Assembly: GCA_945859605.1 (NCBI GenBank)
Contig: OX243828.1
Location: forward strand, 28,104,178-28,168,177
Length of the DNA stretch: 64,000 nucleotides
Direction: 5' to 3'
Source of the DNA: Lumbricus rubellus
Taxonomy: Eukaryota; Annelida; Clitellata; Crassiclitellata; Lumbricidae
The position numbers and the translations under genes were made by a program. The notes under the pieces are model-generated. The model searched no databases. It was not told the DNA's origin and was given only the letters and a program-made list of their open reading frames with translations. How positions within the stretch are numbered: position 1 is the stretch's first letter; each line of letters begins with the position of its first letter. Below are positions 3,509 through 43,689 of this stretch, in pieces.

Positions 3509-3509
<1 letters not shown>

Positions 3510-5240: not shown

Positions 5241-5249
5241 ATGCATTCA

Positions 5250-5335: not shown

Positions 5336-5339
5336 TCCA

Positions 5340-5990
5340 ACTTGAGCGCGGCCAAATAAAACTGTCTTAAGATGAGAGAGGAAAACCTGAGAAGGATTTT
5401 TACAAAGAGTATTATAGACCCGATGCATTTCAGTCAGTCCACTTCCATTGGGGTGGGATGGTGAGGGGGGGTTCGAACCTAGCGGTGCTTTGCACTTAAG
5501 TAGGCAAACTAGAAGTCTGCATTATTAATATTTTATTTAATTAGAATTAAACTTTTCAGAACTTTTACTAAACCATAATCAAGTCGGTAATTTTGATATT
5601 TTATCTGATTAAAATATAAATTGCTATTCTATGTAGGTCCAATTGGAAAATGTCTTAGAAAATGTTTAAGGGTCGCCAATAATTATCATACATGTAGTTC
5701 GTCCTCTGAGGCAAAAAATATCCCAGCAAAGTCAGTTCTTACATCAGCGCATCTCTGCTCTTGATATACCATATATTTATATTATTATATATATTTATTT
5801 TATATTTATATTATCAGGTTATAATCTTCTGTCGAATTAGTTCCTACTATCATCATCCATTCAGTTGGTCAAGCATAATATGCCGGTAATTGTCATCCGA
5901 AGCTTGGCGCAGAGGCACTGGCTCCCACCACCCTCTCCCCCAATCCCGACGATCCCGTTTCAAATTACTGATTTGGTTGAAAGCTGCAGC
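5340..5990. other. Gene-free AT-rich stretch, possible SINE fragment
   Basis: At 5470-5480 there is a perfect RNA polymerase III B-box-like GGTTCGAACC in a tRNA-like context, readable on either strand. No convincing A box was placed. No other feature is seen. Confidence 0.35.
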
Positions 5991-6854: not shown

Positions 6855-8490
6855 AGTAATTTTAGGTGATTTGAACATGGATCTCTTGAAACTAATAGCC
6901 ACAAGGCCACTGCTGATCTCTACCACTGCTTTACTGCCCAACATCTATTGCCTCTCATAACCAGACCTACCAGGATCACTGACCACACGTCTACATTACT
7001 AGATAACATATTCACTATAGCATTTGGACCAAACTTATTTACTCTTCAATTCTCATCGAAGACATCTCTGATCACTTACCAATCATAGCATGGTTTGATT
7101 TTGGTCGTCCCATCAAACTCCCTAAAAACCCTCAAACACTGACATTTAAACTAGTATCTGATGACCATAATGTTTCTAACTATATACAGACCGATTTCTG
7201 TACTCCCATTATTCGCTAAAATATTTGAAAAATTAATGTACGCACGTTTATATAGTTTTTTTTATCAAAAGAGAAAGTACTATTTCAGTCTCAGCATGGA
7301 TTCCAACAGGGTCATTCTACCTACATGTACATGCCCCTTCTAAGCATACAAGACAAAATCTCTAATGCAATTGAAAATAATGAGTACTCCCTCGGTATCT
7401 TCCTTGATGTAAGCTAGACTAAAGCCTTTGATTCTGTAAATCATCATATTTTGATCAAAAAAACTTTATAACTACGGAATTAGAGGCACACAATTACAAT
7501 GGTTTGTTAGCTATCTTGAAAATCGTTTTCAACTGGTTTCTGTCAATTAATAAAAATTGTAATTCTGATCTACAAATCATTTCTCACGATGTCCCTCAGG
7601 GATCTAATCTGGGTCCCCTTTTTATTTTTAATCTATAATTTAATGATTTACCTAATGTGTCGCATTCTATGTATTTTGTGCTATTTGCTAATGATTCTAA
7701 CTTATTTCATTCCGATAAATCTATTGATACCCTATTCAAAATGGTTAATTCTGAGCTTTGATTGGTTTCAATCCAAATAAACTTACTCTAAATTTGGATA
7801 AAACCAACTACAACCCCTTCAGCTTCCATAAGAAAAAATATCCCAATCAACTTCCTATTCTACCTATTGAAGGGACTCATCACCCAAGTAACATCCACAA
7901 AATTTTTGGGCGTTTACATTGACCAGCGTCTAAATTGGAAGGAGCACATCAATAACATGTCTAGCAAAATTGCTAAGACTATAATTGGTGTGCTATTTCG
8001 CTCATCTAAGCTAATTCCTATCACTATCCGGTCTATGGCAGTAGTGTAGTCCTAAAAAATGAAGTGGGGGAACGCTCTTTATAATAATATTAGTAGTAGT
8101 AGTAGTAGTAGTATTAATATTCCATTATCCCTGGAAAAGAGTGGGGGAACGGCGTTCCCCCGCGTTCCCCCCCCCCCCACTACACCACTGGTCTAGGCTA
8201 TAGCCTACTGTGCTCTTAGCCTATTTATCCTTAGTTAACCTACTGTAATTTAATTTGGACGTCCACTTACAAATCAAATCTTGTGAGACTAGTCACCCTT
8301 TAAAAATATGCAATCCGATTCATAGATAATATTCCTCGCCAAGCCCACACTGCTCTGTACTTCCAGGAATTTGGATGATTAAAAATCGATTAAATTAGGC
8401 ACTTGCAAATAGGAGAGTTTATGTAGGCTACCGCTAACCATGGCCTTTTACCACTTGTATTTCATGATTTCTTTAACCTATCTGTGTGCC
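6855..8490 (+). pseudogene. Decayed non-LTR retrotransposon (endonuclease and reverse transcriptase remnants)
   Basis: Plus-strand translation in changing frames gives LINE landmarks in order: an endonuclease-like ILGDLNMDLL near 6853-6882, then RISVLPLFAKIFEKL-like sequence (frame 7161-7343), a palm remnant with FLDVS and KAFDSVNHHIL near 7400-7450, DVPQGSNLGP near 7585-7615, LFANDSNLF (a degenerate active-site box, expected YADD) near 7681-7708, and KFLGVYIDQRLNW at 7902-7940. Frameshifts and stops separate the blocks, so it is dead. A C-terminal block continues beyond a small transposon at about 8040-8192 and ends where the 8499-9900 element is inserted. The order suggests a CR1/Jockey-like clade, but clade assignment is inference. 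Confidence 0.75.
8040..8192. mobile_element. Small hAT-like MITE inside the LINE remnant
   Basis: The ends are CAGTAGTGTAGTCC and, reversed, CAGTGGTGTAGTGG, like hAT-type CAGTGGCGTAG termini. The flanks GTCTATGG and GTCTAGGC match at 6 of 8 bases, consistent with an aged 8-bp target duplication. A TAG-triplet run and G/C homopolymers lie inside. It interrupts the reverse-transcriptase remnant. Confidence 0.6.
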
Positions 8491-8498
8491 TGCCTGTC

Positions 8499-9900
8499 CA
8501 TGGGCGGAGTTTGCTTTCGGTTCTTCGGAAGGGGGGATCTAAAAAAAAACTTGGGCTTTGGTTGGGGCAGAGACTTATTTCAGATCGAGCGGCGCCGAAA
8601 TTTTGTTTTTCCGGACAAAAAGTTGATGACTTTTTTGTCATTCGATTGAAGTTGGTGAAAAGAGCCATTTCCCCGAATACATTTTCGAGTCTAGAGTCTA
8701 GACCTTCTTGGGAGGGAGAGAACTTCTCTTCAGTCTTCTGCTGTTGAGCAGGTTTGTGACGTGGACAATCCGGTGATCCTCTCCGACCGCCGCCATCCCG
8801 CTCTGTCCTGCGCCTTCCTCTTGGTGTTACCATATACGTCTCCATTATCCAGATCGCTCAGCATATTTAATCTTCTTCTGCCTCTCGTTGCCTTTCCCTC
8901 CATACGTCCCTCCAGCAACGTCACCAACATACCCTCTCCTCTAAGTATGTGGCCCAGCCACCGATGCTTTCTCCTGCTTATTGATTGAAGTAGTCCTCTC
9001 TTCACCCCTGCCCTTTTCAAGACTGCCTGATTTGTGATTTTGTCTCTCCAACTTATTTTCAACATTCGCCTCCACGTCCACATTTCAAAGGCCTCTATTC
9101 TTTTCCTATCCGTATCCATCATTGTCCAGCACTCAGCACCATATGTTGCAACTGTCCATATCAGACATTTTATCATTCTTATCTTTAGTTCCATATTCAT
9201 ATTTCCAGTTAGTATCCCTTTCTTTTCCATAAAGGCACATTTACCCTGAGCTATTCTGCTCTTAATATCTGCTTTGCAATATCCATCCTCTGATATTACA
9301 CTGCCCAGGTATTTGAACTGGCTGACCTGCTCCACGAGTTGACCATCGATCATTATCTTCATCCCATCCACTTTTTTCCTTGATATGCACATTACTTTGG
9401 TCTTCTTTACGTTGATCTTCATGCCGTATTTCTTCGTTACATCATTCAGGTTGTCCATTAATACCTGCAGTCCTTCTTCGGTGCTTGACACGATTGCTTT
9501 ATCGTCTGCGTATCGGATTGCTTTTATCAACTCCCCACCAACCTTCACCCCACTTTCTACCTTGCTAATAGCCTCTCTTGTTAGAGCCTCATCATATATG
9601 ATGAATAGCAGCGGGGACAGGGAGCATCCCTGTCTGACCCCTCGCCCTATCACACAACCATTTGAAAGGTTTTCACCAATCTTCACATATGCTATTTGCT
9701 TGTTGTATAAATTCCAGATTAGTCTTCTGTCTCTCCAATCTACTCCAATATCTAGTAGTATCTCCATCATTTTCAACACCGGGAAAAGATACCATTTGCG
9801 TGGTGAAAAGATACCATTTGCGTGGTGAAAAAGTTGAATCTGGACCTTCTTGTGGGTGGGGGGTTTAGCCCCCCCTAGCCCCCTATAAACTCCGCCCATG
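8499..9900. mobile_element. hAT-like (8-bp TSD) element carrying a LINE fragment
   Basis: The element starts CATGGGCGGAGTTT and ends with its exact inverse AAACTCCGCCCATG. It is flanked by perfect TGCCTGTC copies at 8491-8498 and 9901-9908, so an 8-bp target duplication. Most of the interior is a minus-strand reverse-transcriptase fragment. Just inside the right end lie a G-run/C-run block and a 20-bp duplication (ACCATTTGCGTGGTGAAAAG). Either a LINE inserted into a MITE or the element captured the fragment. No transposase is present. Confidence 0.75.
8752..9780 (-). pseudogene. Reverse-transcriptase fragment (non-LTR retrotransposon)
   Basis: An open minus-strand frame (8730-9899) contains the palm and thumb of a LINE reverse transcriptase. 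It has GVRQGCSLSPLLF (about 9614-9652), the catalytic box RYADD, then KTKVMCISRK, FKYLGSVISEDG, and a C-terminal LIWTVATYGAECW ... MWTWRRMLKISW region. The family normally has an upstream endonuclease and fingers, and these are missing, so the copy is 5'-truncated. The frame is intact over more than 300 codons, so it is younger than the neighbouring LINE remnant. The first 40 or so codons of the open frame come from the surrounding transposon end and are not part of the enzyme. A homologous C-terminal piece occurs at 45720-46050. Confidence 0.8.
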
Positions 9901-9994: not shown

Positions 9995-10470
9995 CAGACG
10001 ACGACGACGACGACGACGAAGGACGCTTCTCCTCCTCCTCCCCAATCTCCTCTTTCATCTTCTCCTCCTTCTCCTCGTCATCTTTCTCCTCCTCCGTATT
10101 CTCTTTCTACATATCCTCCTCCTTCTCCTCGTCATCTTTCTCCTCCTCCCCAATCTCCTCTTTCATCTTCTCCTCCTTCTCCTCGTCATCTTTCTCCTCC
10201 TCCGTATTCTCTTCCTACATATCCTCCTCCTTCTCCTCGTCATCTTTCTCCTCCTCCCCAATCTCCTCTCTCATCTCCTCCTTCTCCTCGTCATCTTTCT
10301 CCTCCTCCGTATTCTCTTCCTACATATCCTCCTCCTTCTCCTTCTCCTTTATGTCCTCCTCCATGTTCTCCGCATGCATATTCTCCTCCATATTCTCCTC
10401 CTCCATATTCTCCTTCTCCTCCTCGTCTTGCTCCTCGCCTTCCTCCACTTCCTCCTTCTCCTCCACCAAT
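9995..10470. repeat. CTCCTC polypyrimidine minisatellite
   Basis: GAC triplets (9997-10018) are followed by a long CTC/CTT-rich tract with a higher-order unit of roughly 120 bp recognisable by CCAATCTCCTC and CCGTATTCTC. Long Leu- and Ser-rich frames across it are artefacts. Confidence 0.85.
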
Positions 10471-10639
10471 CAATCGGTGGCAATATTCAGAATAAATTAT
10501 CTTCTTTCATTCTTCCGCCTTCCACGGAATAATGGCGTCTGCGCATGCGTCTTCTGTCGTTCGTGCCGACCAATAAGAGTATATTATTATTTTCAGACGA
10601 CCATACTTCTGCCAATGACGTCACCTCAGTGGTGGAATC

Positions 10640-10985
10640 AAAAGCATCGTCCACCACATTTGCACCACACATGCACCACATTTGCACCACACATGCATGT
10701 TTGCCATCGAACTAAAAGTCTAAAACACCACGACGTCACGAGCACACCAACACCAATCTGCTTCACCACACGCACCACCACGCACCGATACCATTAATAT
10801 TGATTTTAATTTATTGTCAGTGGAATCAAAAGTATTCGCAACCAACACCATATTGCACAACATATCACCCACCTCCACCGTCAAACTATGACACCATCAC
10901 CATCAAATTGCATCACCACCACCACCACCACCACCACCACCACAACCACCACCACCACCACAATCACCACCACGGGCACCACCGG
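10640..10985. repeat. CACCA-rich repeats
   Basis: Copies of TTTGCACCACACATGCA near 10655-10695 and a near-pure CAC run at 10912-10966. No gene is supported. Confidence 0.75.
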
Positions 10986-11141
10986 CAACGGCCCGGCATC
11001 ATGCTAACACTCGTCTATTCTCTATACAATGTACTGGCTTCAAATGTTGAAACTCTCTTCGTACATATCTTCATTCCCAACCTAACACTAAATAAATTTC
11101 GCCTATATTATAATCTACTTGAAACAGCTCCTGATATTCTA

Positions 11142-17501: not shown

Positions 17502-20285
17502 TCAATTGCTGCTTCTAGGTGACAACAAGAACTGGTCCTGCTCCAGAGGCTTTCCAACCCAACGCCCAATTCCTGCCTTTTCAAATGCTTGGTACAGCAG
17601 ACCTTTTGCCTGCTGGTAGTCGCCAGCAAGAGCCTTTGCCTCTGCGTACGTAGACTGGACATCAAACGTTAACCCTGTCGTCAGACGCAGAGCTCCCGAC
17701 AACTCACTGAACTTCTGGAACAGCTCCTGCTTGGAAAGCTTACAGGAATTGCCGGCTTCCAGCTTTCCAGAGTTAGTATTCACAACGTCGAGGCCGTCAG
17801 TCCCATCGTTCATCCACACGCACGCAAAGCTCGGTGCCTTCTGCGGCTTGCGACTGTCAGGATTCGTGATGGTGCTCAGCGTAGGTTGGTTCACGTGGTA
17901 ACCAGTTGGCAGCGATTCGATCTCACCGAGACGACCAAACACGGCTCGGCTTAGATGCTCGCTGTGGTAGAGGCTTCCGACGACTATGCTGCTCAGGTAG
18001 ACTGGCTCCAAGAAGAGACTGAGTAGAGCTCCTAGAAGAAAATCAGCACAATGCATCAGTATAATAATTAACTATAAATCATTTTCACTCAATGAGATGT
18101 GAACTAATATTCTCTACCAACAGAGTAATATCTATCTGATGAGGCTGCACAACTGGCCTGTGTTACAGCAACTAAGGCCTCTCCACCTTTAATACCTTGA
18201 GAACATAAGGTTTAATGCTGCTAGTTCAGAGCTACAACTCTAACAGCACATTGATTTATACTTTCAAAACTGTTCATAGTATTACTATTCCATCAGTTTT
18301 TTTGCAGAGAAATTGTGCTGCAGACTTTTCATTATATTGCATGCATTGCTGTCTCAAATCTGAGTGGCCTCTTGCCTCATTCTACTTACTTAACAAACTC
18401 TCCAAGCAATGGCGCAAACAGCATTTTCAGTCAGATGGACACAAAAGAAACGTAGGCCTGGAGTGTGCATTAGGCCAGTGTACATTAGGCCTGGAGTGAA
18501 CAAAATAAATATGCATCTGCCCCCCTGCAGTCTATAGTGTCTTAAATTCAGCATTATCTTAGGAAGAACTTTATTGGCCTTGTCATCTGCATCAAGCTCT
18601 ACAACAAACTTTCCCGCTTCTCAGACAGCATGGTGTTCAAAAACATACACAAAATTCAACAATAACACCAAACAAGTTCAGGCAGAAATTTATTACCATG
18701 ACTGCAAAGAAATCAATTTCATGGCATAAGATAGGAAGCTTAAAATGTGTAGAAATCAAATGGATTGCAATCTGACGTAATGTAACAAAATGCAAACCTT
18801 GAACTCCAAGAACATTCCAGCGAGCAATCTTGTCGCTGCACGACATCGTAAGCAACCTTTCGCCGCTGAGAATTCCATCCCACGTCTGAACGGCCTCCGC
18901 ATACTTCACAGGAATCGTGCCTTCGCCAGACTCGATCTTCGTCCTCAGCTGTCCCCGAGTTATACGGTTCGGATGTCGGTCCGTACCATTTTCTTCTCCT
19001 TCTTCAGGAGTTGTTTCATGGGGCGCGAAGATTCGTGCGTCTCCACATGGAGATGAACTTATGAACAGATGAAATTTCACGTCACGTTTTATCTGGAAAC
19101 CTGCACGGTCAGAACATTTCTCGAGTATGGTGGAATCGGCCGGTGGTTCAGTTGCCGATGTCCATTTCTCCAGTTCATTGAAGAGAAATAGACGCAGGCA
19201 ACGACACGCAAGAACCTCAGCGTGACAATCATTGATGGCCGCTCCGATGTCACTGATATATTCCCCATTGATACATTTTGTTCCTGTTGTTACTGCGACC
19301 ACTTGCCCTGGCATCGCATCGTATGATTTCTCATCGCCATACGTCATCACGATTCCTGCGAGCACCTTAAACCGCGAATGCTGCGTTGTGAACTGATTCG
19401 TCAGATCTCCGAACTTCTCGACGACTATCTTCGCAACATGATCAGATAGCAAACGATCAAACTGTCCTCGATTTGATGGAACTGCTTCCTTTCCTAATTA
19501 TGCAAACAATAACTTATTGTTTTACGATCGCACAAGTTTCTTTACTCTGGCAATTTGCAAAAACAATTAGCATTTAGTTTAGAGACTGAGTCCTAAGTTC
19601 ACGCCTTCTCTGTCAGTGCATCGCAATCATTTTGACTATGAAAACCATTTGGTCAGAAGATAATTCTTCAAGAAACTCGACCTAACCAAACTACATAATG
19701 GTATTATGATATTATGGTAAATGTAGTGCAGTATTAAATGCAAAGTAGACCAATATATGTTTAATTAATAACTGATTACGATATAATGATACATATACAG
19801 CTTCAAGCAATAAAAACTCTGGTTATGGTCATGGTTAATTAAAAATAATGTGATTAGGAATAACAGTAGGGTGAAAACCCCGGTCCTGAATCGGTTAAGT
19901 ATTATTACTAACTAGTAATCAATTAGTAATTAGTTAAGTATTATTAATAATTAGTTAAGGTAACTAGTTAAGGTAATTAATTAACCTATTATAGTAATTA
20001 GGTCTTATTAATTACTTATTATATTAATTAGTATAGTAATTAGTATAATAATTAGGTAATTATATTAGTAATAGTAATTAGTTAACCCTAACTAGCAGCG
20101 GTACAGGGTCCCACCCCGGGTATGCGTCATCGGTAGCGGCATCCAAAACACAAAGAGCCGGTCTTTTCAAAAGACTGCGGCGGACGGAACACTTAACTGA
20201 AGGGGGGTATTGTTCTAGGAACTACCCTATAATTATAGTCCCCCCTTTTGATGTAAAGGCCTTTGCGTGCACATTCCTGTCTGCC

Positions 20286-20328
<43 letters not shown>

Positions 20329-23301
20329 GTGACTTACTTGTACGTCAAAAATAATTATAGACATTGAAAAATAAATTTTTATTTCTTCACAGGGTCCCAT
20401 AGCCCCCAAATAGTCCACGCCGGTAGAGTGCAACAAATTATTACCTTCACTGAACCCTATAATTATGATCACACGACGGCGAAGACGCCCCAGGCATCGG
20501 TCGACGGACGACGGTCGCGTGCACTGAAGCGTGTCATAGCAGACATAACGGTCTCTACGCCCCGGGCGATGAGACGGGCACCGATCGAGGGGCCTATTGA
20601 ACTGCTCAGCCGTTTAATAACGCAATTGTAAAGCCCACATATTCAACAATTACAAATCATTGCTTTTATCGCCCGTACACACAAGCTTTGATCACACACG
20701 TATTGATTTATAACACACGAGGCTATGTAGACGCGCATAAGTCAAAGTATAGTCCATTCGTCTTCACACCCCCTCTTCCTCCTTACCCTCCATTCCTCCT
20801 CTTCCTCCATTCCCCACTCTTCCTCCACATCCCATCTCTCTCTCTTCCTCCTCACCCCTCTCTTTCTTATTCCTCTCATCTACAAAGTCAACCGGCAGCC
20901 TTTGAACGCAAACATGAAACACACACATAAATGTCACTTCAAAGTTTTATCCCTCAACGAATATTCACATTTGTACTCAAGACTTCTAAAGCCTCTTTCA
21001 TCATCAAAAGACCTCGGCGAACTTCTAAAGAGGCAGGCATCAAAAATATTCTGTTTGATCTTCAAAGAGCACAGTACTTCTAAAGATTCTTTCATCTGAC
21101 ACGTACACAAATCTAGAAAGGAACACACATAACCAGTGGTATTTACACGCACCCAAGCATGCAAACACAAACATGCACACAAAAGCATGATGAAATATCT
21201 CTCTTCTATTACATCAGCCACCTTATAAAACTCGCAAAATCTCCACAGGGTAGCACAGACGCTTTCAGAAATCAGCACACGTTTCTTCATCTACAGACGA
21301 TTCCCGTGGCCAGCAGCTCTTTCTACAGTCTTGTGTCAGACGACAGCAACAAGTCTTCAGCTTACAACAGAATGACTTCACGTATGTATTATAGTATTGA
21401 GAAGAATTATTTTAATTTGTATCGAGCTTGAATAATTTCTGAATTTTATTTAATGTATAGGACTATAGTGCTTAAATTTCTTCATCTGTCTTAAACATTC
21501 ATTTATTATTTCTTTCGTCAGCTTAAATTCATAGGTTCTGTCTTAAACACCCGTTTATTGTTTCTTTCGCCAACTTAAAATAACTTCATAGGTTCTGTCT
21601 TAAACACCCGTTTATTGTTACTTTCGCCAACTTAAAATAATTTCATAGGTTCTGTCTTAAACACCCGTTTATTGTTTCTTTCGCCAACTTAAAATAACTT
21701 CATAGGTTCTGTCTTAAACACCCGTTTATTGTTACTTTCGCCAACTTAAAATAATTTCATAGGCTCTGTCTTAAACACCCGTTTATTGTTTCTTTCACCA
21801 ACTTAAAATGCTTTCATAGGCGCTGTCTTAAACACGACTTTTATTTCTTTTCTAGAATCCAAGATGATAGATGCCATTATAAGGGACGAAGAATTGAAAA
21901 TGAAAGAACGTGTTCGTAACAGACTGCTTGAAATGGGTTTGTAGTCTGCACATGAAATTTATATTTTATGTGTGAAATATTTTACTCAAAATACACCGTG
22001 AGTCAAAAAAAAGTAAGCCAAATTGTTTTTCATATATCTCTAATGCATGATAACATATCACGCTAAAATTTTCCAAATATTTAGAGAATTGGACGAAGAA
22101 TATGATTCCAAAATTTCATGGGATAAAATTGAACGGATAAAAAGATATGAATCTGTAAACTTCATATGCCGAAATTGCCGTTTACAAGCAATTTTTTTGT
22201 CAGATTCAATAAAAAAAAGTAAGCTAAACTGTTTTTATTATTTCTCCAATGCCAGCTAATTAATCATACTAAAACTTTCCAGATATTTAGATAATTGAAC
22301 CTAGAATAGGATTCCAAAATATCATGCAATAAATTTGAACGGATAGAAAGATATGAATATTTGAACGTCATCTCCGAAATTTCACTTTTCAGCAAATCTG
22401 TTATGGTGTTCGCTGCAGTTTTGATGCCTGATAATTCCCAAGTTTGGTCTTCAGTGATCCTGGAGTAAAATTTTACGGAATATAAAGTGTGGAGCGTGCA
22501 TAATGAAAGACCGAGTCTACCAGACAACAATCCATGATATAAACGATCTGAAGCAACGCTTGTTGGAAGTGTGGGATGGCCTGGACCAGAGGATAATCGA
22601 CGATGCTGTTGCCTAATGGCGCCTGCGCCTCAAGGCTTGCGTGCACGCTGAAGGATGACATTTTGAGCATCTTATTTAATTAAATAATCAAATCATACTG
22701 TTGGGGTCATATTGCTAGTTCAATTATCTACATATCTGGAAAATTTTAGAATGATTGATCATCAGGCATTAGAGATATGAGAAAAAGTTTGACTTACATT
22801 TTACTGAATCTGACAGAAAATTGCTTGTAAACGGCAATTTCGGCATATGAAGTTTAAAGATTCATATCTTTTTATCCGTTCAACTTTATCTCATGAAATT
22901 TTGGAATCATATTCTTGGTCCAATTCTCTAAATATTTGGAAAATTTTAGCATGATATGTTATCAGGCATTAGAGATTTATGAAAAACAATCTGGCTTACT
23001 TTTTTTTGACTCACGGTGTATATTTTGTTATAACTAATTGTAATGAATTCGAACATTTTACTAGTTAGAAATGTGGCATTTTAAATTTTCAGTCAAAGAC
23101 CTTTTAGCAGTGCTATTTTATTTCAGAGCGAAAAAGAAAAGCTGACGAAATGAACACAGACAGGCATTCAAGTAGGAAATATTTCTTTATTCTCTGTCAA
23201 ATTTTCGCTGTTAGACCTTTATTGACAGCATTGCAACCATCATTTACAGAAACCAACATTTGGCCTCTTATAGAATTCATTGTGTTATATCTTCTATAGA
23301 A

Positions 23302-23346
<45 letters not shown>

Positions 23347-26300
23347 ATTATATAATGCAAAGGTCCTCACCATAATAATCGAAACCACATATTATTATAG
23401 TGCACTCTTTTTCGTGCGGACTCGGACATTATAGCATATTTTACATTCTTCAGGTAAAACGCGACCAACTTTCGCGCTGTGTGACATCATTTTAATGTTG
23501 TGCATACCTTACTATAACATCGATGCTTTGGGGAAACAAATTTAATTCTCCACACAAGAAATATTTTATATTCAGCATAATTTTATTCATTTATAGAACT
23601 CGGTCAGAACAGTGGTGCTGCAACTACAACTTCGGCTATGGCAGTCCCGCCTTCCACATCGGCAGAGTCGCACGCCAGATCCACCACGGCAAGAGAGCCG
23701 GCTGATGCATCAAGTAAGTTGTATTCGAAAATTTTAAATGACTTTCATAAGTAGAGTAGAAAGCCGTGTTACAGCACTATAAACAAGTGTTTGCTATTGT
23801 TCTGCATTGTTTTGCCTAAAATATTGTCAGACATTTTGTCTTGTTTTTTCCTATGTGTGGGTTACACACAAAAACACACGTGATCTGTGCTGTATGAACC
23901 GCATCACACCCATAAAATATCCTTCCGCACCAACATTTTTACTATGTAGAACTACTTTCGCGTATGAATTTGTGAAAAAGTAGTTTCAGCGCTATAATAA
24001 GTAGACACGTTTGAAACACAACAGTCTTAGAATTCAAAAGAGCATTTGAAATTTAGCATCTTTTGTAAAAGTAGTGCGCCTCTACGAAAAATAAGTAGAT
24101 ATAGAAAGACATATGATAAAATTCTTTCATATTGAACAAGATAAAGCAGGCTTTGCAACTCGAATACTGCAAAATGAGTAAATAAAGTTCTTATTCTTTG
24201 TATTCTGTATTAGGCATCATGTATTTTCCTAACTCTCAAAACTCGTGTATTTCTGTTTCTAGCGAACACGCTCGATGCTGACCTCGATCAGTTGCTGAAG
24301 GAAGATATTCAACTGAAGGCGAGAATTCGAGAAATGAGTAAGTTTTCACTTCGGCGTATTTCAATTGCAGACTTTTAAAAATAAAAAAAATAAAAAATCT
24401 TTAAAATTTGTTGTTAATTTATAAAAATAAATTTATAATCATTTAAAATACTTGCACTATTTAAAAATGGAGCTTGTTATTCATGTCAAATAATATATGT
24501 TGTAGGACTTAAGCGAAAGGCAGACGCGGATACCAGCCGTGCAGCCAAGCAAACTAAGTTGGAATCCGGCGGCCCGCGACAAGGGGGCCCCGGCCCGGCG
24601 GCGCCCGGTCCAAGCAGAGGCAGCGTGACAGAGGCCGACTCGACAAGTAAGTTCCTACAAACTTGATGTCTTTACTTCCTTTTGCCTACAACATATGCAC
24701 CCTTGCACATTCTACCAACTTTCAATAATGTACATTCAGTATACAAGATGTGAACTTTAACGGTCTTTGACTTTATTATAGTGAATATACAGCATGTGAA
24801 CATAATATTTTATTGTTGTCGTTAACCTTTAGATCGTTGTGAATCTTGCCGATCTTACAAGCAGACACTGACGAACAATCTCTGCGAAGTCTGTTTGCTG
24901 AGACGAGAGTGTCCGCAGTGTAAGACCCGCCGGCCGTCGCGCTTCTTCAGGTCCGGACAAGATCTCTGCGTCACGTGCTTCAAGAAGCAGGGCAACCCAA
25001 ACATCAAGACAAGCGCCCAGAATGCGTTCATAGACGTTTCGTTTCCAGCACCGCAGACAACCGACGTACATAACATGCTGCTGACGGAATCGTCGCGCAT
25101 GACGAACACCCTCGAGGACACGTTCAGAGACGAAGGGTTTGTAGGCTACAAGCTACAAATGTTGTTGGACTTATAAAATTTTTAGCCTAAAATCCTACTG
25201 GACTTAGAAAATTCTGCAGTGTGTTCGGACTTGGGTAAAACTTGTATTTGCACGTTGTTTGGACTTAGAAAATTTCTGCATTTTGTTTGAACTTAGAAAA
25301 TTTACAACTCTAGCGCGTTTGGTCTTGGACAAATTTTTATGTACTTAGATTGTTTAGTCAATTCTGAGTCTGTACATTGGTTTGAAAACATTTTCGCAGC
25401 ACTCTTACATTCTGACTTGGGAAATTCTTGAGGCTGCAGCATTCGAACTTGTGCATTTTGCGGCGTGCGTGGTATGTACGGGCGCGTGTTATACTCACAA
25501 AAGTTTATGCTTTTCTTCTTTAGGCCGGTGAAATGGTTCGTTGCGGTCGATGTGGACTTCAAGCGAACCACGTCAGACGGGGAAGCCCAGACGGTCGGCT
25601 ACTTCAAGTCGGTGCCAGCAACACTCACACACCCATCTCAGATCCCAGATCAAATGCAAGAGGCCGTGCATCGAATTGACGAATTGGTAGATACGTTTAC
25701 GAGCGAAAGTTCCGGATGGACGGTAAATGGTGTGGTTGACTTTAAAATTTGCAATGCCGTCTTCGACCCAGTAGGCGCCTCCAGCTATATCCCTACGCCG
25801 CAATACATTGTCAATAAGCGAGCTACTCTGAATATTCAGAACGAGGACGAGTTCTGCTTTCTATACAGCGTGCTAGCAGTTTCCCACTACCAAAAAGATA
25901 ATGCCTGCCGAGTCAACAAATACAAGCAATACCTGGGAGAGCTATATACTAGAGGACTTAAATTCCCAATGACAATCGAACAGATTCCACTGTTTGAATC
26001 GCTCAATCCTGACTATAGCATAAACGTCATGTATTCAAACCCAGATGACAAAACTTTTACGCCTCTCTACGCAAGTGCTCACAGGGGTAGAAAACACATT
26101 GCAAACCTTTTGCTTCTTGATAATGGCGACAAGCGCCATTACATAACTGTGCGCAATCTTTCCGCACTCTTTAACACTAGAAATTCACAAGATCATAGAA
26201 GTTTCCCCTGTCCGTACTGCTTGTGCTGCTTTACAACCGCGGCAGTCAAACATGCGCACATGGAGGAATGCGGCAAACACGGCCTTCAGTCCGTGCGGTA

Positions 26301-29300
26301 TCCAACTCCTGAAAATTCCACACTGAAATTCACAAACACTCAGCATGAAATGCCTGTGCCTTACGTCTTGTACGCAGATTTTGAGTCGTTTTTGGCGCCA
26401 AACGACTCTGCCTCCAACGCCAATGCAACCAAAATACTTGATACACATACTCCTAGCGGCTTCTGTTGTCTGACTGTGTCTTCTTTTGCTCACTTGAATG
26501 ATGCCAAACCATACGTCTATTCTGGACCTGACGTCATGGATCATTTCTTTTCTCATGTGAAATCTGAACAGAACCGCATTAATAAAATTCTTTCTACCAA
26601 CATGCCTATGAATCCGCTGACTCAGCAGCAGAAAATGGAATTTGATTCTTGTACTGCATGCCCATCTTGCTCTGTTGCTTTAACCGGCCAAAACAAAGTT
26701 CGACACCACTGTCACATGACTGGTAACTTTGTTTCTGCTCTTTGCTCGCCCTGCAACTTGAAAATGAAATTTCGCAAACCGACAAAGGCCAAGAATCGGA
26801 AAACCCCAAACTATTTCCTTCCTGTCGTGTTTCACAACCTTAAGGGTTACGACTCTCATCTCATCTTGAAACACATGACAAAGGAGTTCGCAAGCGAAGA
26901 AATCAAAGTAATAGCCACTAACATGGAAAAATATCTTTCGTTCGAAGTCAATAATATCAGATTTTTGGATTCTTTACAATTTCTAACCTGTGGTTTGGAC
27001 GTGTTGGTGAAAAATTTGGCGAAAGAGGGTGACTCCAAATTCAACCATTTGCGCCGACTTTTTCCGGACAATTACAAATTGCTGCTGCGTAAGGGGGTAT
27101 TCCCTTACGAATACATGACTTCGGCCTGCAGAATGACCGAAAGGACTCTGCCTCCCAAAGGCTGCTTCTATAGCAAACTGGCTGAAGAAGACATTTCACA
27201 GACTGACTACGACTATGCCCAACAGGTTTGGCAGACATTCGACATGCAGACTCTCCAAGACTATCATGACCTGTACTTGCAGACGGACGTTATTCTACTA
27301 GCTGACGTTTTCGAATCTTTTCGAAAGATGTCTATGGAATTTTACGGACTTGACGCGCTTCACTACTACAGCAGCCCCGGTCTTAGTTTTGACAAGTGTT
27401 TACGCATGACGAAAGTGGAGTTGGATCTTATCACAGACCCAGACATATACCTTTTTGTGGAGCGGGGGATGAGAGGTGGTGTCTCCATGATATCCAATCG
27501 TTATGCAAAGGCCAACAATCCGTATCTTGCCCAAGGATACGATCCAAATGACCCCATCAGCTACATAATGTACTTGGATTGCAATAATCTGTATGGTTAC
27601 GCCATGTCCGAACCGCTCCCGACCGGAAAATTTAAATTTCTAGCGACTGAAGAAATTGATAATTTCGACTTGAGCACTAAACAGACTGACGACGACTTGG
27701 GTTATTTGTTGGACGTGGACTTGGAGTACCCTTCACATCTCCATGACGCACACAACGACTATCCTCTCGCTCCAGAGAGCTTGCACATACGACCGGAGAT
27801 GATATCTCCTTACGCAAAGTCCATTTCGCACAAAATTTCGGCTAAAATTGGTACCGGAGTTGAAAAGTTGACTCCAAATCTAATGTCAAAGACTCGATAC
27901 GTCGTACATTACCGAAATTTACAATTCTACCTAAAAATGGGGATGAAATTGTCTAAAATTCACAAAATACTTGAGTTTCGGCAAAGTCGATGGTTGAAAA
28001 ACTATATCGACTTCAACACGTCCAAACGGCAGGTTGCCAAATCTTCCTTTGAAAAAGACTTTTACAAACTAATGAACAACTCTATCTACGGGAAGACCAT
28101 GCAGAATAATAGGAAGCACCTAAACGTCAAATTAGTCATGAGTGGAAAGCGCGCGAAAAAATTTGTTGCCCGGCCAAATTTCGAATCGTACACTATAATA
28201 AATGAAGATTTGACAGTCATAAAATTAACAAATTCAAACGTCTTTTTGAACAAGCCACTCTATGCAGGCATGTGCATTTTGGACATATCAAAATTAAAAA
28301 TGTACGAATTCCATTACGAACATATCATTCCTCTTTACAATTCCGCTTGCAAACTCCTTTTCACGGACACAGATAGCCTTTGCTATCACATACAAACATC
28401 CGATGTGTACAAAGACATGCTGCAGCATTTAGACGAATATGACACCTCAGACTACCCCTGTGGGCACTTCCTTCACAGCCGCTCCAACGCTAAGGTAATT
28501 GGGAAGTTTAAGGATGAGTGCAATGGGGCCGCTGTTTTGGAATTCTGCGGCTTGAGATCGAAAATGTATAGTTTGCTGCTTCCTAACGAAAAAGAGAAGA
28601 AGACGGCAAAGGGTATAAAGAAGGGGTTCGTTCAGAAGAGCATTCGCCATGCTGACTATAGGGCCTGTATACTGGAGGAGAAGCCAACATCATCGAAATT
28701 TTGCGTTATTCAAAGTAAGAAACACGACCTTCACACGGTTGAAATTCGAAAAGCTGCGCTTTCCCCGTATGATGATAAGCGTTACCTACTCAATTCGTCG
28801 GAGTCGTTGGCCTATGGACACATAAAAATTGCCTCTCTCGTATAATTCGTTGAAGTCTGCACATTTGGACTCTGTAGATATGTTAAGGTATTGCATAAAC
28901 GAGCAAGTTATTGTGTATTATAGTAAAATGGACACTATTTGTTGTAAATATTTGAACATTCGTTGAACATTATTATTGCATAAAGATATTGTGTGTTCTT
29001 TGAATAAAGAAGTGTTTGCGTTGGAAGAAAAATTATTGTGTTTGTTCTTTCGTACTTAGAAATTCTCATATTAAAATTCTCGCACGCTGCTTGGCCGCAT
29101 ATGCCTGGGCTTGCAAGGTTCTCGCTTGCTGGTTGGCCGCAGGGTCCTAGGTTAATGAAAATCTCGCTCGCTGATTGGTCGCAGGTTCCTGGCTTAGTAA
29201 GATTCTCGCTCGCTGGTTGGTCGACACTTCCTGGGTTATCAAATTTCTCGCTCGCTGATTGGCTGTAGCATTCTCGGCGCCGATACCGATGGCGCATTAC

Positions 29301-32290
29301 TGATGACGCAATACTCGGGGCGCGCGGGGCCCTGTACCGCTGCTAGTTAGGGTTAACTAATTACTATTACTAATATAATTACCTAATTACTATACTAGTT
29401 AATATACTAATTACTATAATAGGTTAATTAATATGACCTAATTACTATAATAGGTTAATTAATATGACCTAATTACCTTAACTAGTTACCTTAACTAATT
29501 ATTAATAATACTTAACTAATTACTAATTGATTACTAGTTAGTAATAATACTTAACCGATTCAGGACCGGGGTTTTCACCCTACTAATAACAATCTAATGG
29601 AATCCATGTTTTCACTTCACAGAACACTAAAGTTACACTTTAAGAAACATGCTGCTCTATGTAAATATCAAAATTGTTGGGCCACTAATTTAAATGAGAA
29701 TGTATCAATGTAAATGCACTGTGAGGTTTTCATCATAACATTGTCCACAACGTTAGGTCTCTCTTAAACTGCATTAAAAAAATTAGCATAAACTTTCTTA
29801 CATGGATTATTGCTCCTGAAAAATGTTACTAGAACATCAGTCTAGAAAAAGAACTGACAATAACTGGCATTAAAAAAATTTCACAGGCATACACTTTTGC
29901 AAAAAATGCATTTAAGCGAATAGATAAATGCGCAAATTTTATGAAATACTTACCAGGAGTAGCAGGGAAAGTGATGTTATACACGGCCTCGAGTGCTGCC
30001 TGTGCTGCTCGTATCTTGGCCATCTTCTTGTTGCGGCCTGATCCTTCAAATATCCTTCCTTCCAGATTGACGGACATCACGAATGTCTTGCAGTGGCTCT
30101 GTCCCGTCTCGGAGACAATGTCGTACTTGATTCCTGGGAGAATTTCGTTCAGAACAGATACAGAGTTTTTACCAGCCAACGATGAATTCTTTGCGGTGGA
30201 ACCATTTGGTGATAAGAGGTCATCGGCCGCCATCATATCGGGAGAGACGTCTCGGGAAGTGTCTTCCGCTGACGGAAAGCCATTCTCGTCTTGTGGCTGA
30301 TTCCTAAGATAAAGCAGAATCCTGTCGGCAGCACTGAGCTTTGCCTGCTTCTTTGTTCCACCCTCACCATGAAAAATCTAAACAACAACAACAACACAAA
30401 TGGTCAAGACAATTGACCAAGTTTTCTGTAACTCTGGTAGGCATCGTGTAATTTCTAAATAATAATCACCTAATCACGTTTATAGCATTACTATAAAATG
30501 CAGAAGACATAAAAAAAACCATAACATATTCAGAAGCACAGGAAAAGTCTTATTTATAGGTCTTGTAAGAAAAAATTACCGAACAAATGATGCTCAAATA
30601 TAGGATAATTTACACATTAAACCTACCACAAATCAACATATCTTGAAGCTGGATGTCATTTCACAATTGTTCCATCCAGTATTGTAGCAATCTGTAATGC
30701 TGCATGCATAATTGCATCCTGTCCCGCGTGCAAATCTGGTGCCACCAAATGTTCCTATAGTCATCAACTTAGTCATCAACTCGAACCATTTCTTCAAAAC
30801 TACTCGTTTTGCAAAAGATGACATTTACTGCACATGCCACCTATTGCTAAGTCTAAGCTGGGGGAAACAATAATTTTGTTGATTGATGCATCTTTATTTT
30901 TATTTATTCCTTAGGAAGCTTTAAATAACACATCTTCAAGATAGGCAACTCAGAAGCACTTCCAGCCCAACAGCGGCTCAAAAGGACAGAACTTTTTGGG
31001 ATTCTCAGTTGTGCATCTACATTTATTTATTTCACATCATTTATTATTGTTATCATCATTGAGTTTTTATTTAGCACACCTTCAAGGTAATCTACACAGA
31101 AGCACTCCCAATCCAACCACAGCTAAATAAGGCAGCTTTTAAGTGATAAGGCCTAAAAAAATTTGTGTTTCCGGTAACAGAGCTAAAAAAAATTGGGTAG
31201 GTAGGTCGGAAAATATTTTTATTTTGGTAAAATATTTTTATGCAGTGACTATCCGAAAAAGTATACCCCACTAGTCTTTTTTGCACGCTGAAACAAAGTA
31301 CATGTTCTAAGCAAGTATAAACTGCCTATTTCCCGACTGTCTGCACCTAAAACTGCTCTAGAAAACAGTCCCATTGATTTCATTTTGTTGACGTCTTTTC
31401 TGTTATGTCAATACAAATGTTATAAAAAAATGTAATTTAAATTTTTTTAAAAAAATTTTTTCTTTTTTTTAAATAAATTTTTTTACAAAAATATTTTTGT
31501 CGCGGCCGTAAAAATGGGTCGGTCGGTTTACCGGAAACACAACAATTTTTTTTACGCCTAAAGGAACATTGTGGTGTGACCTCTAGGCACCAGGTGGAGC
31601 ACAACAGGAAGCCCATTCCAGGTTCTAGGGCGGGCCAATCAGAAAGATTGCCAAGGCATCATAGCTCACTCCACGATTGAGGGGTCAAGAGCTCAGCTTG
31701 ATCAGCCAATCAGAGAGCAGATCAATGCTGGACATCAGAGGTGGGACAGCGGAGCTCCCGCAAGTACATGGGAGCCAGTTACATTTACCGTAGCAGTGTA
31801 CTGCATCTATTGTATGTTGATAGAATCTGTTCCTGTTATATTCAATCTCAAAAGCATTTTAATCGCTGTGTAAAATGCAATACACAAAATGTGCTTATCA
31901 GAAGCAACTAAAGCCCACCTACTTACTTACTGAACGTTACAATGTTTATCATTTCCTTACCAGTCCCTTGTACTGAACCTCCATCAAAAACACTGGGTTG
32001 TGAACAGGACCAGTCTGTGAAAGCACTTTGTACTCGAGACCCGGATATAACTCGTTAAGCAGCATCAGCGCATTCTTCGTCGGACTATCGTCGAGTCGTC
32101 CAACGGTTCTGTTCGCCGTCTTTCTTCTTTTCTTCTTTGGCGGCTGAACACCTGCAGCGACATCTGAACCAGGACGCTTGCTCACAGAAAGGCCGTCGCC
32201 TTCGACTGTCTCGCCTTCGTCTGTCTTGTCTGCATTCTGCTGAACTGCATTTTCACATTTCACGAACTGGACCTCATCATCTGACTCCAT
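17502..32290 (-). CDS. ADARB1-like: ADAR2-like double-stranded-RNA adenosine deaminase
   Basis: It deaminates adenosine to inosine in double-stranded RNA, in the nucleus. The model has four coding exons, reading 32290-31961, 30377-29954, 19493-18798 and 18031-17502. Intron phases are 0, 1 and 1, and all fit, giving 659 aa. An NLS-like PPKKKRRK lies near residues 50-57. dsRBD1 (about 71-137) is split by intron 1 after VQYKGL, and dsRBD2 (about 174-236) has [12 protein letters not shown]. The deaminase domain starts near 270. Zinc and proton-shuttle residues are present: His342 and Glu344 in NDCHAEV, Cys401 in [10 protein letters not shown], Cys470 in [11 protein letters not shown]. The flipping-loop Glu (about 442, SGEGTIP) is also present. 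The C-terminus matches the family (EQDQF near the end). Two dsRBDs and no Z-DNA domain favour ADAR2 over ADAR1. The start ATG follows a possible acceptor (GTGTAG), so a 5' non-coding exon is likely. Intron 2 (about 10.5 kb) holds the Polinton-type element. Confidence 0.93.
19865..20140. repeat. Left terminal inverted repeat of the Polinton-type element
   Basis: Near-perfect inverse of 29300-29584. It has three parts: a 14-bp GC-containing tip, about 210 bp of ATTAGT/TAATTA-rich sequence with small indels between the two copies, and a GC-rich inner edge (GCAGCGGTACAGGG, then GCGTCATC). Confidence 0.9.
20140..21371. other. Polinton 5' region without a recognised gene
   Basis: An open frame at 20428-20631 (67 codons, basic, [12 protein letters not shown]) follows a possible acceptor TTCTTCACAG at 20385-20394, but matches nothing I recognise. 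It could be an exon remnant of a lost element gene or chance. No integrase, ATPase or capsid motif is seen here. Confidence 0.4.
20277..20328. repeat. (TCTG)n microsatellite
   Basis: About 12 TCTG units inside the Polinton-type element, upstream of the polymerase gene. Confidence 0.9.
21372..28845 (+). CDS. Protein-primed-type DNA polymerase B of the Polinton-type element
   Basis: DNA polymerase with 3'-5' exonuclease, expected to replicate the element. The model has eight exons: 21372-21381, 21856-21936, 23127-23171, 23597-23713, 24263-24337, 24506-24646, 24833-25136 and 25524-28845. All junctions are GT-AG. The first six introns are phase 1 and the seventh phase 2, giving 1364 aa. The N-terminus is charged and partly helical (about 1-155). 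A Cys-rich zinc domain follows (about 158-203: CESC, CEVC, CPQC, CVTC). The last exon has a CPYC...H..C finger, ExoI YADFESF (Asp543, Glu545), an endonuclease-VII-like zinc loop (HHCHMTG ... CSPCN), Exo[11 protein letters not shown], Exo[15 protein letters not shown], motif [10 protein letters not shown] (Asp943), motif B NNSIYGKT and motif C FTDTDSL (Asp1206, Asp1208). All are intact and the large exon has no disabling change. The ATG is chosen because the 10-nt exon 1 gives the required phase. The first exon is the weakest. AATAAA lies at 29003-29008. Confidence 0.85.
21525..21835. repeat. 57-bp tandem repeat (about 5 copies) in polymerase intron 1
   Basis: Units share TCTGTCTTAAACACCCGTTT and CGCCAACTTAAAATAA. 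The array ends 20 bp before the acceptor of exon 2 (TTTTCTAG, 21848-21855). Confidence 0.85.
21994..23018. mobile_element. Tc1/mariner-type MITE with long inverted repeats
   Basis: The ends are CACCGTGAGTCAAAAAAAAG and its inverse, flanked by TA. Roughly 190 bp at each end (21994-22200 and 22800-23018) are inverted copies. A further related segment begins near 22205 (AATAAAAAAAAGTAAGC), so the element itself contains an internal partial duplication. No transposase frame is seen. It sits in intron 2 of the polymerase gene, so it arrived after the Polinton-type element. Confidence 0.85.
23300..23345. repeat. (ATT)n microsatellite
   Basis: About 15 ATT units within intron 3 of the polymerase gene. 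Confidence 0.9.
29003..29008 (+). promoter_or_regulatory. Candidate polyadenylation signal of the polymerase gene
   Basis: AATAAA lies 158 bp after the polymerase stop codon, followed by a GT-rich stretch (GTGTTTGCGTTGG), the usual layout of an animal 3' end. Confidence 0.55.
29057..29275. repeat. 42-bp subterminal repeats of the Polinton-type element
   Basis: Four to five units contain TTCTCGCTCGCTGGTTGGT-like sequence, spaced close to 42 bp, between the polymerase gene and the right inverted repeat. Each has a reverse CCAAT-type ATTGG or GTTGG core. No counterpart was found at the left end. Possible roles are initiator binding or a promoter. Confidence 0.75.
29300..29584. repeat. Right terminal inverted repeat of the Polinton-type element
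   Basis: Inverse of the left end. This copy has an extra internal duplication of a unit containing TAATTAATATGACC. Confidence 0.9.
30950..31135. repeat. Retroposon-tail fragments in ADAR intron 1
   Basis: AGAAGCACTTCCAGCCCAAC (about 30952) and AGAAGCACTCCCAATCCAAC (about 31097) are two copies of the motif also found at about 50549. Both follow a TTTATT-rich segment. They look like ends of the same interspersed repeat family. Confidence 0.55.
31150..31558. mobile_element. PIF/Harbinger-like MITE
   Basis: The element begins GGCCTAAAAAAATTTG and ends with an approximately inverted TTTTTTTTACGCC. Each side is flanked by TAA (31147-31149 and 31559-31561), a 3-bp duplication as in Harbinger elements. 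The shared inner motif is TGTTTCCGGTAA, followed at the right end by the inverse of ACCGACCGACCC. No transposase is present. Confidence 0.65.
31562..31765. repeat. Interspersed repeat copy (same family as about 50590-50780)
   Basis: The word order GTGACCTCTAGGCA, ACAACAGGAAG, GAGCTCAGCTTGATC corresponds to GTGACCCCTAGGCA, ATAACAGGAAG, GACGCTCAGCTTGGTC near 50610-50705. The class is not identified. Confidence 0.6.
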
Positions 32291-40700: not shown

Positions 40701-43689
40701 GCTGTGTTTCTGTGGCTGTGTTTCTGTGGCTGTGTTTCTGTGGCTGTGAATCATTCTGTGGCTGTGAATCATTCTGTGGCTGTGTTTCTGTGGCTGTGTT
40801 TCTGTGGCTGTGTTTCTGTGGCTGTGTTTCTGTGGCTGTGTTTTTGCATCTACACAACAGGATGTTAAGGGTCTGGAGGGAAGATAAATTTAGAAGTCCA
40901 CAACTTAATGCTTTGCGTATTTTAATGCTTCACATTCTTGAAAGTCACCAGTATTTCACATATCTTATTCTATTTCATAACAATTGTTGATGCCTTCGTG
41001 ATTAAAGACAGACAAAACAGAAGACAGTTCAATCAGTCAATCGATCAATCAGTTAATCAATCAATCTATCGACTTGTTTATTTGAAATACATGACCTTCA
41101 TCCTCCTCACAAGGTCACTCCATAAAAATACTGAACACAGGCCACATGATCTCACCCTCACATGATTTCACCCTCACGTGATCTCACCTTCACATGATCT
41201 CACCCTCGCGTGATCTCACCCTCACATGATCTCACCCTTACATGATTTCACCCTCACGTGATCTCACCCTCACGCGATCTCACCCTCGCGTAATCTCACC
41301 CTCACATGATCTCACCTTCACACGATCTCACCCTCACGTGATCTCACCCTCACATGATCTCACCTTCACATGATCTCACCCTCACGTGATCTCACCCTCA
41401 CATGATCTCACCCTTACATGATCTCACCCTCACGTGATCTCACCCTCACATGATCTCACCTTCACATGATCTCACCCTCACGTGATCTCACCCTCACATG
41501 ATCTCACCCTTACATGATCTCACCCTCACATGATCTCACCTTCACATGATCTCACCCTCACGTGATCTCACCCTCACATGATCTCACCCTTACATGATCT
41601 CACCCTCACGTGATCTCACCTTCACACGATCTCACCCTCACGTGATCTCACCCTCACATGATCTCACCTTCACATGATCTCACCCTCACGTGATCTCACC
41701 CTCACATGATCTCACCCTTACATGATCTCACCCTCACGTGATCTCACCCTCACATGATCTCACCTTCACATGATCTCACCCTCACGTGATTTCACCCTCA
41801 CATGATCTCACCCTTACATGATCTCACCCTCACATGATCTCACCTTCACATGATCTCACCCTCACGTGATCTCACCCTCACATGATCTCACCCTTACATG
41901 ATCTCACCCTCACGTGATCTCACCTTCACACGATCTCACCCTCACGTGATCTCACCCTCACATGATCTCACCTTCACATGATCTCACCCTCACGTGATCT
42001 CACCCTCACATGATCTCACCTTCACATGATCTCACCCTCACGTGATCTCACCCTCACATGATCTCACCCTTACATGATCTCACCCTCACGTGATCTCACC
42101 CTCACGTGATCTCACAGAGTTGATTCATTGGGAAAAAGCTTTATTAATACAAGAATGTTGAATGACTTTTCATAAATGTTTCTATTATTTATTTCTTCTG
42201 TGCACTAGTGTGCATTGTTGTAGTCTAATAAAGAACATTCTTGCTTGCTTAGTAATCCAGTTGATCCAACAGAACCATGTGTTTTAAAATGGATTAGTAA
42301 TTTCCGTGTGATTTTCATTTACTTCTGAGTTGATGTCTGTGGAGATTCGATGTAAACAGTGTTTACTGCTTCATTACGTTACAGGTCTTCTATGTAAACA
42401 GTGTTTACTGCTTCATTACGTTTACAGGTCTTCTATGTAAACAGTGTTTACTGCTTCATTACGTTTACAGGTCTTCTATGTAAACAGTGTTTACTGCTTT
42501 ATTACGTTTACAGGTCTTCTATGTAAACAGTGTTTACTGCTTTATTACGTTTACAGGTCTTCTATGTAAACAGTGTTTACTGCTTCATTACGTTTACAGG
42601 TCTTCTATGTAATCAGTGTTTACTGCTTCATTACGTTTACAGGTCTTCTATGTAAACAGTGTTTACTGCTTTATTACGTTTACAGATCTTCTATGTAAAC
42701 AGTGTTTACTGCTTCATTACGTTTACAGGTCTTCTATGTAAACAGTGTTTACTGCTTCATTACGTTTACAGGTCTTCTATGTAAACAGTGTTTACTGCTT
42801 CATTACGTTTACAGGTCTTCTATGTAAACAGTGTTTACTGCTTCATTACGTTTACAGGTCTTCTATGTAAACAGTGTTTACTGCTTCATTACGTTTACAG
42901 GTCTTCTATGTAAACAGTGTTTACTGCTTCATTACGTTTACAGGTCTTCTATGTAAACAGTGTTTACTGCTTCATTACGTTTACAGGTCTTCTATGTAAA
43001 CAGTGTTTACTGCTTCATTACGTTTACAGGTCTTCTATGTAAACAGTGTTTACTGCTTCATTACGTTTACAGGTCTTCTATGTAAACGGTGTTTACTGCT
43101 TCATTACGTTTACAGGTCTTCTATGTAAACGGTGTTTACTGCTTTATTACGTTTACAGGTCTTCTATGTAAACAGTGTTTACTGCTTTATTACGTTTACA
43201 GGTCTTCTATGTAAACAGTGTTTACTGCTTCATTACGTTTACAGGTCTTCTATGTAAACGGTGTTTACTGCTTCATTACGTTTACAGGTCTTCTATGTAA
43301 ACGGTGTTTACTGCTTTATTACGTTTACAGGTCTTCTATGTAAACGGTGTTTACTGCTTCATTACGTTTACAGGTCTTCTATGTAAACAGTGTTTACTGC
43401 TTCATTACGTTTACAGGTCTTCTATGTAAACAGTGTTTACTGCTTCATTACGTTTACAGGTTTTCATTCAGAGAAGCACAGGCTGTGATCACATGACATG
43501 CTCGCAGTGCAATACGCATTTCTGCTACCAGTGTGGAGAAAAGTTCAGAGAGTTCAAGTTCATCGGTAATCACTACAGTCGTCTGAGCATATTTGGCTGC
43601 AAATACCTGTACGACAAAGAGAAGCCGATAGAAAGGAAGTTTGTGCGAGGATCAATTTTTGGTCAGTAGTTTTGTGGTGTCCATTCTAG

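Follow-up and report, generated by a model that had tools for sequence, protein, structure and literature searches.

A 64,000-nucleotide stretch of the 787-Mb Lumbricus rubellus genome (C21:28104178-28168177; here called the window) carries an insertion with Polinton-type ends in which a DNA polymerase is the only recognizable gene, and this raises the question of how an element without a detectable integrase could be copied and inserted. We think it probable, from the comparisons given below, that a split (bipartite) Polinton, accompanied by palindromic satellites, exists in this genome and that the element is its replication half. Polintons, in their original descriptions, have AG...CT inverted repeats and a 6-bp duplication. 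The insertion in the window (19865-29584, 9720 bp) has AG...CT ends (AGTAGGGTGA...TCACCCTACT) and is flanked by AATAAC duplications; the ends, inverted repeats, duplication, and length given in an initial annotation of this DNA were all borne out by the sequence. The features are as follows.

19859..19864, no strand: left target-site duplication, 6-bp AATAAC (from sequence)
19865..20143, plus strand: left terminal inverted repeat, beginning AGTAGGGTG
20144..24822, no strand: long left part in which a coding signal was not found (copy comparison, Pfam, tblastn)
21988..23024, no strand: probable nested insertion with 208-nt inverted arms (96%) (inverted arms; copy alignment)
24823..25176, plus strand: open frame with predicted N-terminal polymerase exon (frame-specific conservation; match in L033)
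25465..28845, plus strand: intact ORF of a family B DNA polymerase, predicted to be of the protein-primed type (sequence, fold, copies, dN/dS)
29288..29584, minus strand: right terminal inverted repeat, ending CACCCTACT
29585..29590, no strand: right target-site duplication, AATAAC (from sequence)

The two inverted repeats (~280 nt) match at 90% overall, and their outermost 115 nt are 100% complementary. Most of the long left part could not be aligned to the insertions L011 and L014, and it matched L012 and L021 at 68 to 94% where aligned; L012 and L021 had no match over almost the whole of 21988-23024. The AG...CT terminal inverted repeats and 6-bp duplication are those of a Polinton/Maverick, and the length, 9720 bp in the window element and 8.2 to 8.8 kb in these four like copies, is below the 15 to 20 kb of that group. 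Adjoining the insertion on the minus strand is an ORF (29829-30236) that, by its motif, we take to resemble a double-stranded-RNA-binding domain. Two 1-kb stretches of the window (10001-11000 and 41001-42000) have a strong GC skew (-0.62).

That an intact polymerase is the only recognizable gene, as annotated initially, also held: its ORF is stop-free over 1126 amino acids (aa), and Pfam and tblastn found no others. Pfam searches with ten further ORFs of the window element gave no credible match (best, 0.027, far below the cutoff), and when ORFs from seven reference stretches were run by tblastn against five members of the window family (family 1), the polymerase gene was the only one found. 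These searches could overlook exons that are short or highly diverged. Within their sensitivity, the window element and the four like elements showed no integrase, ATPase, protease, or capsid gene, and the possibility of an integrase or capsid gene missed in the window was rejected. The window element thus differs from a Polinton/Maverick in having no detected rve integrase and no detected ATPase, cysteine protease, or capsid gene. A hexon beside the polymerase, as in adintoviruses, was not seen either, a capsid gene being found in 0/5 family 1 elements, and no Pfam match to an NS1 helicase or parvovirus capsid was obtained among the ORFs examined.

The polymerase ORF (25465-28845) forms an unbroken 3.3-kb exon, the true start of which is probably near position 25500. 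Across the 5.6 kb to its left, clear frame-specific conservation was seen, among the best tblastx matches, only in the N-terminal exon; a large part of the leftmost 4 kb could not be aligned between some family 1 copies. This exon, presumably zinc binding to judge from its cysteines, is coding as well: read in its own frame, it is 87 to 89% identical (aa) to its counterparts in the four like copies, compared with 54 to 81% for the other frames listed. It also matches the same exon in L033 (32%, E = 5e-14). The predicted fold of the polymerase has a mean pLDDT of 84.3, and its nine best PDB matches are nine chains of phi29 DNA polymerase (best E = 5.2e-18; TM-score by target length, 0.61 to 0.71). 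Judged from its sequence and this model, the protein is a phi29-type, protein-primed family B polymerase. A protein database search returned 4219 relatives (E ≤ 0.001), the five best of which are 54 to 67% identical and come from proteins without organism names; a spider adintovirus polymerase is 44% identical. Pfam, NCBIfam, and PHROGs gave the polymerase no name, yielding only a weak match to endonuclease VII; ankyrin-type matches in the PDB by sequence were taken as chance and rejected, and viral contigs searched with single proteins yielded no relative.

Copies of the window structure, for which the initial annotation had proposed a search, were indeed present in the same genome. A search with the left repeat (best 40 of 404 candidate places scored, the window's two included) led to 14 insertions beyond the window that were opened at both ends and ten more that were read at one end (L003 and L040 to L048). 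Four of them (L011, L012, L014, and L021; 8156 to 8781 bp) share the window layout and have polymerases 91 to 95% identical, open in L011 and L012 and with one interruption each in L014 and L021. The 25 insertions with family 1 ends thus comprise 5 polymerase elements and 20 palindromes or palindrome-like insertions, ten of the latter read at one end only. Perfect 6-bp duplications were seen in 15/15 family 1 insertions with both ends (ten checked by machine, four by eye from the flanks, and the window itself); the structure of the window insertion is not due to chance, because many places in the same genome carry its end repeat and all 15 duplications are perfect. A domesticated host polymerase was rejected on the same 15 insertions. 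A lone deletion product was also rejected, the family being multicopy, and derivation by a single deletion from 15- to 20-kb Polintons, which the initial annotation had named as its refutation, had no counterpart in the insertions opened.

When the genome was searched with the polymerase protein, the best 41 of 2190 candidates scored were the window and 40 other places, the latter 92 to 95% identical and all nearly full length; 31/41 were stop-free. Two of these places (C16:13130321 and C16:13161251), which lie 31 kb from each other, score equally, and each contain one TAA, are possibly a segmental duplication. Counts for this family and for family 2, described below, are lower bounds, the best candidates having been scored. 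Among the five opened copies, dN/dS, another check that had been proposed, was 0.047 to 0.108 in 10/10 pairs (Nei-Gojobori; dS, 0.29 to 0.62; open pieces only for L014 and L021), and from these sequences the family 1 polymerase is under strong purifying selection. Selection of this strength, persisting at dS of up to 0.62, and 31 open frames among 41 scored places (best of 2190) speak against a full Polinton having simply given rise, by deletion, to a non-autonomous derivative in which the polymerase was kept by chance and which is moved by full elements; we regard this as the least probable of the three alternatives weighed here.

The remaining ten family 1 insertions for which both ends were opened lack a polymerase and are palindromes. 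Such noncoding, near-perfect palindromes of 3.5 to 10 kb, with the same ends as the polymerase elements, occur in both families, and 14/14 palindromes opened at both ends have inverted arms, which range in length from 1.3 to over 4 kb and in identity from 97 to 99.96%. The ten insertions read at one end match such palindromes, with the resemblance limited to ~750 nt in L041 and ~790 nt in L046. Half-versus-half identity was 99.40% in L010, 99.44% in L013, 99.55% in L022, and 99.33% in L023. It was lower in L009 (85.7%), L024 (94.4%), L016 (97.2%), and L019/L020 (67.5%) because their halves are out of step or hold insertions; by local alignment, their arms extend over 1.3 to 2.7 kb at 98.2 to 99.96%. 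L010, L013, L022, and L023, together with L036 and L037 of family 2, are ~8-kb noncoding palindromes with halves 98.9 to 99.6% identical and internal tandem units of ~73 bp (judged by alignment offsets), and 5/6 have perfect 6-bp duplications. Related family 1 palindromes differ from each other by 0.2 to 13%. Arms of related palindromic elements differ by up to 19%, compared with 97 to 99.96% identity within an element, and a hairpin step in protein-primed replication is thereby testable from sequence. Some of these insertions hold other ORFs: L019/L020 has a nested 1378-aa ORF (L019 3222 to L020 1353), presumably a Gypsy-like gag-pol, and L018 has an internal ORF (3435-4253, minus strand) that, by motif, we take to be THAP-like. 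L015 is inserted in another copy of the Gypsy-like element, and its empty site is found in L020 (57 nt at 98%, with a single copy of the duplication).

Sharing of sequence between polymerase elements and palindromes extends past the repeat at the left end: L014 shares 720 to 751 columns with four palindromes, L012 shares 535 with L015 and L016, L021 shares 497 with L024, and L011 and the window share shorter pieces. Matches at the right end stop about at the repeat (at most 346 columns). Palindromic deletion forms are known for protein-primed linear replicons, as in yeast killer plasmids and the left-end palindromes of adenovirus. By analogy, the simplest reading is that the palindromes would arise by fold-back copying from the left end, one replicon end being doubled into a long palindrome with identical ends as in those systems; unlike those forms, the present ones are chromosomal, have 6-bp duplications, and occur in many copies.

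Candidates for a source of integrase were sought with the Polinton-type integrase of an environmental viral contig (L025), which showed that the short integrase ORFs of the genome fall into three main kinds (best 129 of 3361 scored). Kind i, opened once, is a canonical Polinton of ~16 kb that has all genes, a polymerase of its own among them (L030+L027). It starts with AGTAGTATAGAG, an AGTAG end, and AGTAG ends are common to all families seen, this one included. A full Polinton with a similar end is what the deletion-derivative explanation would call for; its polymerase is only 39% identical to that of the window, so that it is not the parent of the window element. As a partner element, kind i was rejected, being a canonical Polinton with its own polymerase in a stretch without the family 1 repeat, and kind iii (L029, opened in part) was rejected because its stretch also contains no such repeat. 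Elements of both kinds may nevertheless supply integrase in trans; given its AGTAG start, the canonical Polinton too could do so, and on the sequence of the ends any integrase of the AGTAG-ended families could serve the window element. L029 carries its integrase ORF twice (4448-5407 and 8355-9290), as a direct repeat ~3.9 kb apart, and the ORFs preceding each copy are presumably ATPase-like and phospholipase-like.

Kind ii identified a sister family (family 2). The integrase insertion L031 is 8802 bp long, with 939-nt repeats starting AGTAG and the duplication CTGAAT, and encodes a RING protein, a Pox_A32-type ATPase, an rve+Chromo integrase, a Peptidase_C5 (adenovirus-type) protease, and a DJR-like capsid protein (weak match, E = 0.0094; 3141 relatives in the protein database). 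Two further ORFs, the one scanned having no Pfam match, we take to be penton-like. L034 (8904 bp) is a copy 95.7% identical to L031 that has a different duplication, TGTGCT, and L028 and L032 are further copies, incomplete at the ends as read. Neither L031 nor L034 has a polymerase, and these capsid elements (Pfam was run on L031 only) are compact and gene filled between the repeats. A search with the L031 end repeat gave 41 matches (best 40 of 247 candidates scored), and the seven insertions opened from this list were the capsid element L034, the polymerase elements L033 (9308 bp; duplication TGTAGC) and L038 (9310 bp; duplication ATGATA), and the palindromes L035, L036, L037, and L039. L033 and L038 are 99.8% identical to each other, and their polymerase, open in L033 and with one in-frame stop in L038, is 60% identical to that of the window. 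L033 also encodes a PC4-type protein (E = 5.5e-19), of which L038 has an identical stretch; capsid-element proteins searched against L038 gave no match. Perfect duplications were seen in 7/8 family 2 insertions with both ends (L031 and L033 to L039), L037 being the exception.

Family 2 thus carries complementary gene sets on separate insertions (L033/L038 versus L031/L034), and recurrence of the arrangement in a sister family is a further point against the deletion-derivative explanation. L033 aligns to L031 in the end repeats only. One end of L033 matches an end of the capsid element L032 at 287 of 290 positions (98.97%), and the match drops to 48 of 160 in the adjoining inner sequence. The corresponding end of L038 matches L032 at 98.6% (290 columns), the opposite end of L033 matches at 92.9% (336 columns), and the ends of L032 are 82 to 90% like those of L031 and L034. 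Polymerase and capsid insertions have thus traded their ends or kept them alike together, and this holds for nothing but the ends. On these sequence comparisons, a split in family 2 is well supported. Family 1 and family 2 end repeats have little in common beyond AGTAG.

The recurrence of AGTAG across all families seen would also fit three unrelated kinds of parasite whose ends are alike through the use of one integrase, with no common genome. It would fit, too, with the finding that none of the 25 family 1 insertions examined (40 of 404 candidates scored) was an integrase/capsid element. The L033/L032 match, spanning the whole 290-nt repeat, exceeds what an integrase site should need, and the polymerases of the two families fall together: in a tree made by a quick method (45 rows, consisting of 38 of the 120 listed relatives and seven from the loci and the window), the window family, the L033 polymerase, and four environmental proteins form one clade of 8 (SH-aLRT, 100). 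We therefore consider unrelated parasites unlikely, placing them second among the alternatives. Among the 25 family 1 insertions examined, no relative with integrase or capsid genes and the termini of the window element, for which the initial annotation had proposed to look, was seen; the helper of the window's own family, like the source of its integrase, we can only infer. Neither palindromes nor partners without a polymerase were foreseen in that annotation.

The separation of the two gene sets extends across the scored places of the genome. The L031 integrase has at least 116 matches, itself included (2738 candidates), which are 79 to 100% identical and stop-free in 101/116. Twelve of the 116 lie within 10 kb of a scored family 2 end, all among the 21 closest, and one (C9:3326550) lies less than 10 kb from a family 1 end, outside that insertion. 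Of the polymerase places scored (best 41 of 2190), not one is within 20 kb of any of the 116 scored integrase places. A member of the 79 to 82% group on C6 (~8.0 kb, read at its ends only, target duplication not resolved) has RING and ATPase genes at one end, capsid and protease genes at the other, and no polymerase in either 3.2-kb end stretch; its repeats match neither family, and L013, a family 1 palindrome, matches only in repeat-rich sequence outside it. Roughly a dozen copies of the integrase (79% identity, ORF 346) have one TGA each, as if, assuming the same stop, a lineage that carries a stop had been multiplied in trans.

Because only the best candidates were scored in the end-repeat, polymerase, and integrase searches, complete one-piece elements that have these ends may have escaped notice, and polymerase-only and capsid-only insertions could then be deletion products of such elements, in the genome or in a coinfecting virus, that complement each other by chance. 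Polymerase and capsid relatives do occur on environmental contigs of equal size (32,451 for P0002 and P0127, 32,263 for P0006 and P0194, and 21,071 for P0045 and P0181), which suggests both genes on one contig; P0002 sits in the window clade, and P0127 stands at 86%. For integrase-plus-capsid contigs sized 16,472, 12,970, and 8,483, no polymerase of equal size was among the 120 listed relatives. The 0/41 association within 20 kb, the compact and gene-filled rather than eroded capsid elements, and the fact that no opened insertion with family 1 or family 2 ends has both gene sets count against chance complementation, which we hold to be unlikely too and, of the alternatives, the one we credit most.

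According to the initial annotation, the element could be a non-autonomous derivative whose polymerase is still under selection, or it could belong to a distinct lineage that supplies its own polymerase for replication and relies on a borrowed integrase. The latter agrees best with the data, because the family is multicopy, its layout is found five times, dN/dS is 0.05 to 0.11, and the sister family is divided. A split Polinton would work as follows. The window element would be replicated as linear DNA by the protein-primed polymerase that it encodes, and an integrase from separate, polymerase-less elements would insert it. Polymerase and capsid elements would act in trans on common ends, a single capsid may package both kinds, and the palindromes may be fold-back products of protein-primed replication that spread as satellites; a partner element would serve the window family likewise. 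We lean, by a small measure, toward a Polinton lineage that is permanently split into a replicase segment (polymerase, joined by PC4 in one family), an integrase/capsid segment, and fold-back palindromic satellites, with common terminal repeats by which all of them would be recognized. Such a lineage would be a segmented double-stranded DNA (dsDNA) virus-like element living as a multipart transposon.

We know of no earlier case of a multipart genome in the Polinton group. Our literature search found no paper on Polintons that lack one gene, and a split Polinton was not found in the literature searched (PMC11071296, PMC11071308, PMC6431247, PMC4028283, PMC8363768, among others), most subscription papers and Repbase being outside its reach. 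Polintons/Mavericks are described as 15 to 20 kb with the conserved genes together (PMC4028283, PMC6431247). The present elements resemble them in the putative protein-primed polymerase B of the window element and in the genes that the polymerase-less partners carry (rve integrase, ATPase, cysteine protease, and capsid), and they differ in that the genes are divided over two kinds of 8- to 10-kb insertion. Three adintoviruses are 13.3 to 14.6 kb, and in the one detailed, polymerase, integrase, and capsid are on a single contig (PMC8363768). Kinship of the polymerase and a partner integrase with a C-terminal chromodomain are shared with adintoviruses (PMC11071296, PMC8363768); unlike them, the window element has no detected hexon or integrase. 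Bidnaviruses and Vesanto virus have a polymerase B related to that of adintoviruses, a segmented genome with similar inverted terminal repeats on many segments (3.3 to 5.8 kb in Vesanto virus), an NS1 helicase, and a parvovirus-type capsid (PMC8363768, PMC11071296). The elements described here differ from bidnaviruses in having a double-jelly-roll-like capsid, an integrase, and chromosomal insertions. To our knowledge, bidnaviruses and Vesanto virus have no integrase. Polintons have been described as one-piece self-replicating transposons or viruses, and a split, trans-complementing form, if true, would be the first known to us. It would mean that segmentation can arise without particles that carry both parts, since the chromosome holds the two of them in waiting, and it would be relevant to the bidnaviruses, a segmented lineage with a related polymerase.
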